From contig JASHNR010000042.1 in NCBI GenBank assembly GCA_030041535.1, positions 1 through 64,000 of the forward strand: DNA of 64,000 bases, in the 5' to 3' direction. Source of the stretch: Nitrosopumilaceae archaeon (lineage in GTDB: Archaea; Thermoproteota; Nitrososphaeria; Nitrososphaerales; Nitrosopumilaceae). Numbering within the stretch: the stretch's first letter is position 1; each line of letters starts with the position of its first letter. The position numbers and the translations under genes are program-made. The notes below the pieces were generated by a model. The model saw only the letters and a program-made list of their open reading frames with translations. It did not search any database and was not told the origin of the DNA. Shown here one piece after another: positions 33,231-38,633 of this stretch.

Positions 33231-33304
33231 GTTAAGACTACGTGATTCAACCTTATATCGTTTTTAGAACAAGAGATAATTTACTACTATTTATCAGAGT
33301 AGTC

Positions 33305-33904
33305 ATGATCGTGCCCTGCAACCATGATGGAATCATCATAGCGTCTGATATAGTTAAGAAGGGAGGTACTGTCGTATTTCCGACAGATACGGTATACGGA
33401 ATAGGATGCGATCCATTCAATAGCAAGGCAGTTAGGACGATTTACAGAATAAAGGGACGCGAAGAATCAAAGCATTTACCTGTTCTTGGTTTCTCCATTT
33501 CTGAAGTATCAAAGATTGCCATTTTTGATGAATTATCAAAGAGATTTGCTGCCAAGTTCTGGCCAGGGCCATTAACACTAATTCTTGGCATAAAAGAAGA
33601 AAAGATTGCAAAATCTCTTGGTCTTGATGGAAAGATAGCTGTGCGCGTACCAAGCCATCCATGTGCATTAAAACTTCTCAAAGAATGCAAGCTGCTTGTT
33701 GGAACAAGTGCAAATATAGCGGGCCATCCATCCTCTGCAGATTCACATGAGATAATAAAAGAATTAGAAGGATATGACATATTGCTAGACGGTGGAAAAA
33801 TACTAAATTCTGTAGAATCAACCATTATAGAAGTTGTCGGAAGCAAATTTCGCATAATACGTGAAGGAAAAGTTAGTGAAAAGGAGTTACTTACGCTAGT
33901 TTGA
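33305..33904 (+). CDS. sua5: L-threonylcarbamoyladenylate synthase (Sua5/YrdC)
   Basis: 199 residues from ATG 33305; the upstream frame to 33242 adds unlikely sequence. It has GGTVVFPTDTVYGIGCDPFNS, IKGREESKHLPVL, WPGPLTLIL and LVGTSANIAGHPSSA, the Sua5/YrdC landmarks. It makes threonylcarbamoyl-AMP, the substrate that KEOPS puts on A37 of tRNA. The Cgi121-containing gene at 34411 belongs to the same pathway. It overlaps the THUMP gene by 4 nt. Confidence 0.93.
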   Translation: MIVPCNHDGIIIASDIVKKGGTVVFPTDTVYGIGCDPFNSKAVRTIYRIKGREESKHLPVLGFSISEVSKIAIFDELSKRFAAKFWPGPLTLILGIKEEKIAKSLGLDGKIAVRVPSHPCALKLLKECKLLVGTSANIAGHPSSADSHEIIKELEGYDILLDGGKILNSVESTIIEVVGSKFRIIREGKVSEKELLTLV

Positions 33905-34422
33905 ATCTAATTGTAACATGTAGCCGCAATTTTGAGGAAGAATCATCTGACGAGATTTCAAATGTGCTTGAGACACTGGGCGATGACGAGGCAGTGATAA
34001 GAAATAGTGATTTTTCTGGCATAGTGATAGTGAATACATCGCTAGATCCCTTTGAAGTTGTAGATAAAATCAGGGCAAAAATTCTCGACGAGCCCTGGAG
34101 TATCAGGTATTGTCATAGATTCATACCAATTCAAGAATCCATCAAGACAGATCTTGATGCAATAGTAAAGGCAGTACAAGAACATGTCAGCAATATGCAA
34201 CCAGACGATTCCTATCGGATCACAATTGAAAAGCGCGGCTCAGAGTTATCCACTAAAGAGATAATCGATTCTGTCGCAGATATTATTAAAAATAAAGTAT
34301 CGCTTGAAGAATACGATTGGAATGTTATAATAGAGATTCTTGGAAATCTAACTGGCGTTGCGGTGCTAAAGGACCAAAATATGGTAAGCACTCTAAAATT
34401 AAAACGAGATTCAATGGAGTAA
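33901..34422 (+). CDS. THUMP-domain tRNA-binding protein
   Basis: The 173-residue protein starts with TTG overlapping the sua5 stop (TTGA). The middle (about 55-140) reads as a THUMP domain: KIRAKILDEPWSIRYCHRFIPIQESIKTDLDAIVKAV, then YRITIEKRGSELSTKEIIDSVADIIK. THUMP proteins of this stand-alone kind (Tan1/Tan1-like) present tRNA to partner enzymes such as acetyltransferases. The partner is not evident here. The 3' end overlaps the convergent MoaD-Cgi121 gene by 12 nt. Confidence 0.75.
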   Translation: MNLIVTCSRNFEEESSDEISNVLETLGDDEAVIRNSDFSGIVIVNTSLDPFEVVDKIRAKILDEPWSIRYCHRFIPIQESIKTDLDAIVKAVQEHVSNMQPDDSYRITIEKRGSELSTKEIIDSVADIIKNKVSLEEYDWNVIIEILGNLTGVAVLKDQNMVSTLKLKRDSME

Positions 34423-35190
34423 AACTGCAGATCTCTCAACTATGAGATCCTCAAGCGGTGTCTTTGACATTATGCAGTCAAGTCCTTTCTTTGTTATGTT
34501 AAATTCCTTCTTTATGAAATTAGTATTGTTGGGAAATGGCAAAATTGATTCTGTTATGTGACTGATCTCGATAAGAAGTTTTTTGATCAAAGGTTTTTTG
34601 CCAATCATAATTAACATAGAATCTCTATTCTCTTGCAATCCTATTTTATTGATTGCCTCGCTAATCTGCCTTGTACATGCAAATCTCATAAGTATGTCAG
34701 TTTCAATTTTGTTAGAAAGCAGTGTGTTTGACTTGCTTGCTGCTAACGAGATTTCAATGACTCTCTTTGCGTGGTTTGTACTTAGAACATATTGTAACCT
34801 AATACCTTGAACAATTACATCAGGAAACCTGATTCGTAGATTTTCGAGGAGTTTTATAGGATCAGTACCAGTTTTCTTCAACCTAGCTAATTCCACATTA
34901 TGATTTGAAATTCTAAAGTTGATGCTTATTTTACCGCCACCATGCACCACAGGAATTATACTAACAACATCCCCATCCCTAAGAGACGTTTCTGCTCCCT
35001 GCAAAGCGGAGGAATCTATTCCATTTATAGCGACAAGAACATTTTTGGCATCAAATGCAGGCATATTTTTTGAAACCAAATCCTGAAGAAAAACAAGCAG
35101 ATCAGATACGGTCATGGAACTTTTTTCAATTGATATCTTATCAGAAGAAAAAGAACGCTTTGCACCACCAAGAAGTTTTACTGTTATCAT
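34411..35190 (-). CDS. Fusion of MoaD/ThiS-like ubiquitin fold and Cgi121 (KEOPS subunit)
   Basis: Residues 1-86 form a beta-grasp MoaD/ThiS-like domain: ITVKLLGGAKRSF, VLVAINGIDSS, LRDGDVVSIIPVVHGGG. The Gly-Gly that normally is the C-terminus is here followed by KISINFRISNHN. Residues ~92-240 match the KEOPS subunit Cgi121: KLLENLRIRFPDVIVQGIRLQYVL, HAKRVIEISLAASKSNTLLS, DILMRFACTRQISEAINKIGL. Cgi121 helps position tRNA for t6A formation. Both halves are full length in one 259-residue frame. Sua5 is a near neighbour. The function of the fusion is not known to me. Confidence 0.8.
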   Translation of the reverse strand: MITVKLLGGAKRSFSSDKISIEKSSMTVSDLLVFLQDLVSKNMPAFDAKNVLVAINGIDSSALQGAETSLRDGDVVSIIPVVHGGGKISINFRISNHNVELARLKKTGTDPIKLLENLRIRFPDVIVQGIRLQYVLSTNHAKRVIEISLAASKSNTLLSNKIETDILMRFACTRQISEAINKIGLQENRDSMLIMIGKKPLIKKLLIEISHITESILPFPNNTNFIKKEFNITKKGLDCIMSKTPLEDLIVERSAVLLH

Positions 35191-35248: not shown

Positions 35249-35506
35249 TTAGCTAATCAGTTGTTCTTCCATCTCTTCTTCATGATGGACGGTTTCTGCC
35301 TGATCTGCTAGTGATTCTTTTTCCTTTTGTTCTTCAAGTTCCCTTTTCAAATGAGTTGTTATATAACCTGCAATCTCATTTTTTAGCCCCTTGGATCTTA
35401 CTATTGCAACTTCGTTGAGTAGTATCTTATTTTTTTTAAAATCAGTGCCGAATTCTCCTTTATAAGTAGCCATTAGTTCCGTGGAAATTCGTCTGACTCT
35501 ATTCAC
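35249..35506 (-). CDS. rps17e: Ribosomal protein S17e (eS17)
   Basis: The 85-residue protein starts at GTG 35506 and has NRVRRISTELMATYKGEFGTDFKKNKILLNEVAIVRSKGLKNEIAGYITTHLKRE, the eS17 core, followed by an acidic tail. A TATA-like box around 35528-35536 lies about 27 nt upstream of the GTG. That gives a leaderless start and a promoter that overlaps the 3' end of tatD. Confidence 0.92.
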   Translation of the reverse strand: MNRVRRISTELMATYKGEFGTDFKKNKILLNEVAIVRSKGLKNEIAGYITTHLKRELEEQKEKESLADQAETVHHEEEMEEQLIS

Positions 35507-36748: not shown

Positions 36749-36819
36749 GGTGAGGTGGCAGAGCGGCTATGCGTTCGCCTGCAAAGCGAATCTATAGGGG
36801 TTCGAATCCCTTCCTCACC
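36749..36819 (+). tRNA. tRNA-Cys (anticodon GCA)
   Basis: 71 nt fold as a complete cloverleaf. The acceptor GGTGAGG pairs with CCTCACC, the anticodon arm is TTCGC-CTGCAAA-GCGAA with anticodon GCA, the variable loop is TCTAT, and the T arm is AGGGG-TTCGAAT-CCCTT. CCA is not encoded (CC is followed by TTT). A promoter tract GATTTAATT lies about 27-35 nt upstream, overlapping the histone 3' end. No intron. Confidence 0.93.
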
Positions 36820-36878
36820 TTTTATGATATCATAATAACCTACTTTACTAAATACACCAAGTTCTACCAGATTTAGAT

Positions 36879-38633
36879 TTGGCCGATAGAAGTAATGGAT
36901 TATTAGAATACATACCAGGAGCAAGACCGCTTTTACAGCAGTCATCCAATGGACAACCGTTAGAAGGATTTGCCCAGAACATACGGGATAGTGTAAGAGA
37001 ATACGCTGAAGATGCACAAAATGAAGTTGAAAAAGGTCATAATTTTCTTCAATGGGTGCTCACAAGAGTATTTGAGGCAACAGAAGATGACGCAACCGAT
37101 GCAATCATCGATGGCCCAAACGATCTGGGCATAGATGCATATCTCCCAGTAGACTTTTCCGAAGACAAGATCTATCTCTTCCAGTCAAAATATGGAACTT
37201 CACATTCCATAGAAGCCATTGCCAAGTTTAGGCAAGATGTGCAAAGTTTACGCACAAGAGACATTACAAAGATGCGACCCGAAATTGCACGCTTGGTAAC
37301 GCAGATCCAGGAAAAAAATCTGAAAATTGAGTGCATCTATGTTACTGATCAAAAAGTGGATGAAGAAAGTTACGAGTCAGTTGAGATACACGATATAGAT
37401 ACGATAATCCAGAAACTTTGGGACAGGATAAAAAAACCTGCAGTGGGGAAGAAGGCAGCAATAAGGCTAGAGAGCAAGCTGAGATACCAAAATACCCTGC
37501 TTGGAATATTGAAGTTAAGAGAACTAACTAACTTTGTGACAAAAAATAGGGATTATGTCTTTGAATCAAACATAAGACAGTGGATGCAGTTTAAAACGAC
37601 TGTAAACAAGGGCCTTCGCGAGACCTTACAGGAATCTCCTAACAAATTCTTTTACTACAACAACGGGATTACCATAGTTGTAAATGATTTTGAGGAACTT
37701 GAGGACAATTCAATACTTTTACATGCGCCGCAGATAGTCAATGGTGCACAAACGTCTAATTCAGTGTTAGATCATGCAAAGCGAACTCACAACTTGGATG
37801 GAAGCATTACAGTGACCATAATCAAAGCTGCAGATGAGTTGGACCAGAATAACATTACAAAGTACAGAAATTCACAGAATGCAGTAAGAGGAAAAGATCT
37901 GGTTTCTTTGATGGACTTTCACAAGTCGATAAAATCCCAGACGGAGAATTTTGGATATTTTTATGAAATACAGGCAGGCTCGTTTGACAGTAAAGCAAAA
38001 TCACAACAATCAGAATTCATTGGTGATCCCACATACAACAAATATCTTCCCGATAATCATAAAAAAGTTATTGTTGCCAAAGATGCAATACAGGCATTTG
38101 TGGCAGGAATTGAACAGAGACCTACTGAATCATACAGCTCACCTGCACAATTCTTACCAAGGGGAAGCAAATATGACGAAGTATTCAATGAAAAACTAAA
38201 AGACGATTGTAGACTATTGTTGTATCCTTACATTGTAAAAGAATATGCAAAAAAGACGCTAAATTATGGAAAGAAGGGAGGCCACAAAACAAAAAGATAT
38301 GCGACCCTCTTTTTTGTTGCAGTTTATTTTAAAATTCTTCATGAGAAAATAATACTTACCAAGGGGGACTTTAAGGAAGATATTGCAAAACTAGAACCGA
38401 TTTTCAAGAGTGTCAAGCTAAACCAGAGAATTTTAAAACTTACAGATACCGTTGCAACAAAATTTCTAGAAGATACTGTTGTTGACGATGAGATGACGGC
38501 TGCAAATACATACCATAATTTCTTCTCACACCACGTATGGCTAGATTCCATGATACGTGTTATTGAGAAGAAGATAAAACAAGAAGAAGATGAGATCATC
38601 AGCATCCGAAAAATAGTTCAAGATCTTTTCTAA
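36879..38633 (+). CDS. AIPR-family putative antiphage nuclease
   Basis: The 584-residue protein starts at TTG 36879. The N-terminal domain carries a PD-(D/E)XK-like pattern: GPNDLGIDAYL (D86) and IYLFQSKYG (Q102-x-K104), as in Mrr-type nucleases. The C-terminal two thirds match the AIPR (abortive infection phage resistance) domain: FFYYNNGITIVVND (257-270) and PQIVNGAQTSNSV (284-296). Related proteins are linked to phage exclusion and restriction. It is 60 bp after tRNA-Cys, a common entry point for mobile DNA, but I see no attachment-site repeat. A structured element lies directly downstream. Confidence 0.82.
   Translation: MADRSNGLLEYIPGARPLLQQSSNGQPLEGFAQNIRDSVREYAEDAQNEVEKGHNFLQWVLTRVFEATEDDATDAIIDGPNDLGIDAYLPVDFSEDKIYLFQSKYGTSHSIEAIAKFRQDVQSLRTRDITKMRPEIARLVTQIQEKNLKIECIYVTDQKVDEESYESVEIHDIDTIIQKLWDRIKKPAVGKKAAIRLESKLRYQNTLLGILKLRELTNFVTKNRDYVFESNIRQWMQFKTTVNKGLRETLQESPNKFFYYNNGITIVVNDFEELEDNSILLHAPQIVNGAQTSNSVLDHAKRTHNLDGSITVTIIKAADELDQNNITKYRNSQNAVRGKDLVSLMDFHKSIKSQTENFGYFYEIQAGSFDSKAKSQQSEFIGDPTYNKYLPDNHKKVIVAKDAIQAFVAGIEQRPTESYSSPAQFLPRGSKYDEVFNEKLKDDCRLLLYPYIVKEYAKKTLNYGKKGGHKTKRYATLFFVAVYFKILHEKIILTKGDFKEDIAKLEPIFKSVKLNQRILKLTDTVATKFLEDTVVDDEMTAANTYHNFFSHHVWLDSMIRVIEKKIKQEEDEIISIRKIVQDLF

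Follow-up and report, generated by a model that had tools for sequence, protein, structure and literature searches.

The window analysed here, a stretch of 64,000 nucleotides in all, comes from an ammonia-oxidising archaeon of the family Nitrosopumilaceae whose genome assembly (1.83 Mb in 66 contigs) is 99.86% complete, and it carries a gene in which a ubiquitin-like (Ubl) domain and the KEOPS subunit Cgi121 are encoded as a single chain. The fusion gene, its parts and its neighbours are as follows.

33242..33904, plus strand: Sua5/YrdC threonylcarbamoyl-AMP synthase (PF01300 9.9e-53; TIGR00057 above cut-off)
33901..34422, plus strand: stand-alone THUMP protein of 173 aa, convergent with the fusion gene (PF02926 5e-7)
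34411..35190, minus strand: Ubl-Cgi121 fusion gene, 259 aa, ATG start, single frame, with orthologues in the family
34411..34932, minus strand: Cgi121 (KEOPS subunit), residues 87-259 and the stop codon (PF08617 1.8e-9, NF011465 4.4e-32)
34894..34935, minus strand: variable junction and linker, residues 86-99, with low conservation and a dip in pLDDT
34936..34944, minus strand: codons CAT GGT GGC for H83-G84-G85, with the proposed cut after G85 (present in 96/96 fusions)
34936..35190, minus strand: ThiS/Urm1-type beta-grasp domain, residues 1-85 (PF02597 4.6e-12, PF09138 9e-7)
35249..35506, minus strand: ribosomal protein S17e, the upstream neighbour, on the same strand as the fusion (PF00833 1.8e-15)

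A sequence-only reading of this DNA had proposed that one 259-residue frame holds a beta-grasp domain followed by a full Cgi121 domain, and Pfam searches on the two halves separately, NCBIfam, and structure prediction all agree with this. The ThiS and Urm1 matches listed above were obtained with residues 1-86 alone, the CGI-121 match falls within residues 87-259, and all three exceed the curated Pfam cut-offs, as does the match of the whole 259-aa protein to the NCBIfam model for KEOPS subunit Cgi121 its own. An AlphaFold2 model calculated from an alignment of 63 family sequences has a mean pLDDT of 91.7, a pTM of 0.66 and a dip in pLDDT to 70 at residues 81-90; as modelled, the fusion is thus two firm domains joined by a loose GG junction, with a relative domain placement that is not confidently predicted. 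The top Foldseek matches of the model in the PDB are Cgi121 chains (4ww7, 8k20, 7kjt and 8up5, from Bud32-Cgi121 and KEOPS structures), so that the C-terminal half has the Cgi121 fold as well as the family match. For the N-terminal domain the matches are Urm1, SAMP1 and MoaD, with Urm1 of T. brucei ranked first, and the Ubl profile also matches Urm1 of S. solfataricus (4wwm) at 3.8e-7. The observation made in the sequence-only reading is confirmed. For this domain, MoaD and Urm1 cannot be told apart cleanly by sequence comparison alone, and it is the His-Gly-Gly tail together with the Foldseek ranking that favours Urm1; Sulfolobus Urm1 ends in His-Gly-Gly (PMC4569737, PMC12625751), the tail of the Saci protein being H82-G83-G84 (PMC4569737). 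The chain as encoded does not itself end in Gly-Gly, the pair lying internally at residues 84-85 of 259, and it would acquire such an end only by being cut.

The sequence-only reading had pointed to a GGG at residues 84-86, and the position is right, but it is only H83-G84-G85 that is conserved. These three residues are unvarying in all 96 distinct fused proteins of the Nitrosopumilaceae type, while the residue that follows is S in 53 of them, A in 18, R in 8, G in 6, N in 3, K in 3, T in 2 and E, L or I in one each, and is never P, so that an internal GG kept under selection is followed throughout by a residue compatible with cleavage. Residues 87-100 are the least conserved part of the chain (mean frequency of the commonest residue 0.44, vs 0.67 in the Ubl and 0.60 in Cgi121), and across 19 Ubls of the order the only invariant columns are G8, H83, G84 and G85.

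The surroundings of the gene also recur. Sua5 and the intervening THUMP gene lie where the sequence-only reading placed them, Sua5 being close by in 57/64 family loci, and the 3' end of the THUMP gene shares 12 bases with the fusion gene. The THUMP protein (33901-34422), in which no catalytic domain was detected, is encoded near Sua5 and Cgi121 in 63/64 family loci. S17e is close to the Ubl in 60/64 loci of the family and in 29/33 loci of other families, and the arrangement in which TatD, S17e, Ubl and Cgi121 face THUMP and Sua5 predates the fusion. Elsewhere in the window, at 36879-38633, an AIPR-family protein (PF10592 6.5e-55) is encoded directly after a tRNA-Cys gene (36749-36820); placement just after a tRNA gene is frequent for mobile or defence genes.

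A survey of related genomes finds the fusion to be general within the Nitrosopumilaceae, single-contig genomes included. At one locus from the same genus as the source genome (in G035) the sequence coincides with a record for Candidatus Nitrosotalea devanaterra (LN890280), and the named relatives that bear the fusion are all Nitrosopumilaceae. In most of the genomes examined from other families of the order, Ubl and Cgi121 are instead consecutive and often overlapping genes, with the Ubl upstream; across the phylum they are mostly apart, being adjacent also in two further families (f24 and f45). The majority of the separate Ubls in the other families terminate exactly at HGG and the rest run a few residues beyond, the tails being CI, CL and CLRYDGEVE in f2, MVGV in f3, L in f6, S in genome G081, and A and SSH in f9. 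In two Nitrososphaera-like genomes of f8 (G067 and G098, loci L060 and L071) the gene for the Ubl, which ends in HGG, adjoins or overlaps the end of S17e, the gene after it encodes a KH-type RNA-binding protein, and Cgi121 lies elsewhere, an arrangement which implies that the job of the Ubl is separable from KEOPS.

A tree of the joined domains places the Nitrosopumilaceae fusions in one clade (99/99). One further fusion, from a small genome that is 82% complete (G074; L058 880-1614), falls outside this clade and beside f12 (89/81, with long branches). A single origin for all fusions was ruled out on this basis, and the tree points to two independent fusion events, the fusion being restricted to the Nitrosopumilaceae apart from this one case. 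The G074 chain reads LHCSAFK at the corresponding place, so that the GG has been lost, and in the same 82% complete genome an E1, a JAMM protein and a further ThiS match were all looked for and none was detected.

The fusion itself has been known since 2010, when Makarova and Koonin reported it in all the thaumarchaeal genomes then available, noted S17 as its neighbour and raised a possible connection between Ubl, KEOPS and t6A (PMC2948915). The suggestion of such a link in the sequence-only reading is for this reason not new. Relative to that account, the fusion is now seen to be limited to one family and one independent case, with separate genes elsewhere, and the part of the 2010 paper that deals with the fusion does not argue for a precursor requiring cleavage. 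No later paper on the Ubl-Cgi121 fusion was found in the literature searched, within which the restriction to one family, the separate gene pair as ancestral state, the lack of a free Ubl and the argument for a precursor appear to be additions.

The case for a precursor turns largely on the other proteins encoded in these genomes. Each closed Nitrosopumilaceae genome gives two ThiS-type matches, and in the five genomes where both sites were located (G006, G035, G037, G039 and G052) one is the Cgi121 fusion and the other is the N-terminal Ubl, with a likewise internal AVAGG end, of a ThiF/MoeB-type E1. Searches of closed genomes of the family with PF02597 and profile A1 yielded no free-standing Ubl, a result limited to Ubls within reach of these two models, as others could escape them. 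Adenylation by an E1 takes place on a free C-terminal glycine, as established for MoeB-MoaD, ThiF-ThiS and Uba4-Urm1; with the E1 retained and no free Ubl found, cleavage after GG is to be expected in one or both of the two fusions. However, the Ubl fused to the E1 could be the only substrate of that enzyme, and may work in cis.

Loss of the E1 was considered as a possible sign of some role independent of it, as about 20 of 121 family genomes seem to have no Ubl-E1 even though HGG is kept, and was ruled out: the adjoining threonine synthase gene (thrC) is also missing or truncated at contig ends in these cases, so that the absences look like assembly gaps, and the E1 is present in every single-contig genome of the family surveyed. 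Absence of the thrC and Ubl-E1 pair, or its breakage at contig ends, occurs in many Nitrosopumilaceae MAGs (e.g. L102 2028-4563), a recurrent gap that mimics loss. One genome (G053) has two full-length copies of Ubl-E1 (C26:7001-8311 and C17:10115-11425), through either duplication or mixing of MAGs. Loss of tRNA thiolation was similarly ruled out, the NcsA/TtuA-type model being matched almost everywhere.

Two JAMM proteins are general in the family. One of them, JAMM-A, has an intact HSHPx7SxxD motif and matches JAMM1 of P. furiosus at 1.6e-15 (entry 5lda, which contains JAMM1 and SAMP2 chains) and the desampylase model at 3.3e-17, the latter under the cut-off. It is encoded in the source genome (on contig C37) and is near-universal in the family, being not found in two MAGs of nominally 95% and 90% completeness (G016 and G055) and a few less complete ones. 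Among the separate Ubls, those with residues past GG are in genomes having JAMM-A in nine cases out of nine, while of 20 that end exactly at HGG, 12 are in genomes without it. This association (Fisher 0.0024 by genome and 0.042 by family, uncorrected for relatedness, so that related genomes are counted as though independent) may be taken as a hint that tail and protease go together.

The sequence-only reading had left it that the internal GG might be cut to release a modifier or that the domain might act only as a docking part of KEOPS, and the comparisons favour cutting: HGG is invariant beside a variable junction, there is an E1 with no free Ubl found for it, almost all genomes of the family encode a JAMM1-like protease, and the Ubls of related families end at GG. 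On balance it is probable that the fusion is a linear precursor, of which the N-terminal half is a Urm1-type modifier or sulfur carrier and the C-terminal half Cgi121, and that it is cut after G85. The protease would most likely be JAMM-A; the freed Ubl, now ending in HGG, would be adenylated by the E1 and then take part either in tRNA thiolation, transferring sulfur together with the NcsA/TtuA-type protein, or in conjugation to proteins, while the released, mature Cgi121 would join KEOPS for t6A synthesis. That it should be the Cgi121 fusion that is processed is suggested by an HGG that stays invariant while the junction next to it drifts, by derivation from a free protein ending in GG, by loss of the GG in the one fused lineage (G074) with no E1 or JAMM detected, and by precedent. 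Eukaryotic ubiquitin-ribosomal protein precursors also carry a Ubl N-terminal to a translation-related protein, although in the present case the partner belongs to KEOPS rather than to the ribosome, and a JAMM-type protease is proposed. The arrangement also resembles MoaX of M. tuberculosis and the MoaD-MoaE fusion of D. radiodurans, each with an N-terminal MoaD/ThiS-type Ubl, an internal GG and a catalytic partner behind it, and in each of which function needs a cut after GG: in MoaX the cut falls between Gly82 and Ser83, and activity depends on it (PMC4326299), and MoaD-MoaE is cleaved by a D. radiodurans JAMM (PMC8832034). The Ser that follows GG in MoaX is also the commonest residue at that place in the Ubl-Cgi121 fusions. 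The partners differ, however: what follows the Ubl in MoaX and MoaD-MoaE is a molybdopterin synthase subunit, by which the Ubl, once released, is used directly, whereas Cgi121 has no known use for one. Archaeal Urm1 (Saci_0669, and that of S. islandicus) is a beta-grasp Ubl with the same His-Gly-Gly end and serves as a protein modifier (PMC4569737, PMC12625751), but these are free proteins with no Cgi121 attached.

If the Ubl were instead never cut, it would stay within KEOPS for good, either to dock a partner or to regulate the complex, and HGG might have been retained for that contact, for folding or for binding to KEOPS. Such an arrangement would account for a fusion that is in a single frame family-wide, for a t6A neighbourhood (Sua5 and Cgi121) older than the fusion, and for the good folding of both domains within one modelled chain; it is nevertheless unlikely, as conservation at HGG exceeds that in the remainder of the Ubl, yet the junction beside it varies, the domain placement is not confidently predicted (given the pTM and the low-confidence linker), an unprocessed Ubl would leave the E1 with no free substrate, and in the Nitrososphaera-like genomes the Ubl occurs apart from Cgi121. 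Cutting might also be partial or regulated, such that the uncut chain is a constitutively Urm1-tagged Cgi121 (e.g. with a degron that couples the level of KEOPS to the proteasome) and the cut chain provides the supply of Urm1. Residual full-length MoaX was present wherever cleavage was seen (PMC4326299) and an N-terminal Urm1-GFP fusion was directed to the Sulfolobus proteasome (PMC4569737), but a degron has no need of an invariant GG, and this reading seems decidedly doubtful. It is very improbable that the Ubl is itself the direct donor of sulfur or some other activated group to a t6A-type nucleotide in a new KEOPS chemistry, for all that the fusion lies beside Sua5 and structures of tRNA-bound Cgi121 exist (7kjt, 8up5): an NcsA/TtuA-type thiolase is present as an ordinary acceptor, and no known step in t6A synthesis requires sulfur. 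Participation of ubiquitin-like or sulfur chemistry in t6A itself finds no support here, and the link suggested by the sequence-only reading may be only that of synthesis together with a KEOPS subunit. The chance that misassembly or a frameshift has artificially joined two genes is negligible, since fused frames recur across the family as 96 distinct proteins, single-contig genomes among them, and in the one genome where the halves lie in different frames (G020, contig C7; L028 1209-2022) the break is a single extra A in an A-run just past HGGGK, giving a product that ends HGGGKNKRKL, through either sequencing error or natural re-splitting.

A stronger form of the precursor proposal, somewhat less likely than not, is that the Nitrosopumilaceae encode no free Ubl at all and make Urm1 solely as the N-terminal part of the Cgi121 chain, to be freed by a JAMM protease, so that its supply would be tied one-to-one to the making of the t6A complex. 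The comparisons have in effect narrowed the meaning of the fusion described in 2010 to one yes/no question, namely whether the chain is cut after G85. If it is, then archaea of a family of abundant ammonia oxidisers would make Urm1 by way of a polyprotein, coupling the supply of a ubiquitin-like modifier or sulfur carrier to a central tRNA-modifying complex; if it is not, then KEOPS would include an uncut Ubl with an invariant GG as a functional component, an even more surprising outcome.
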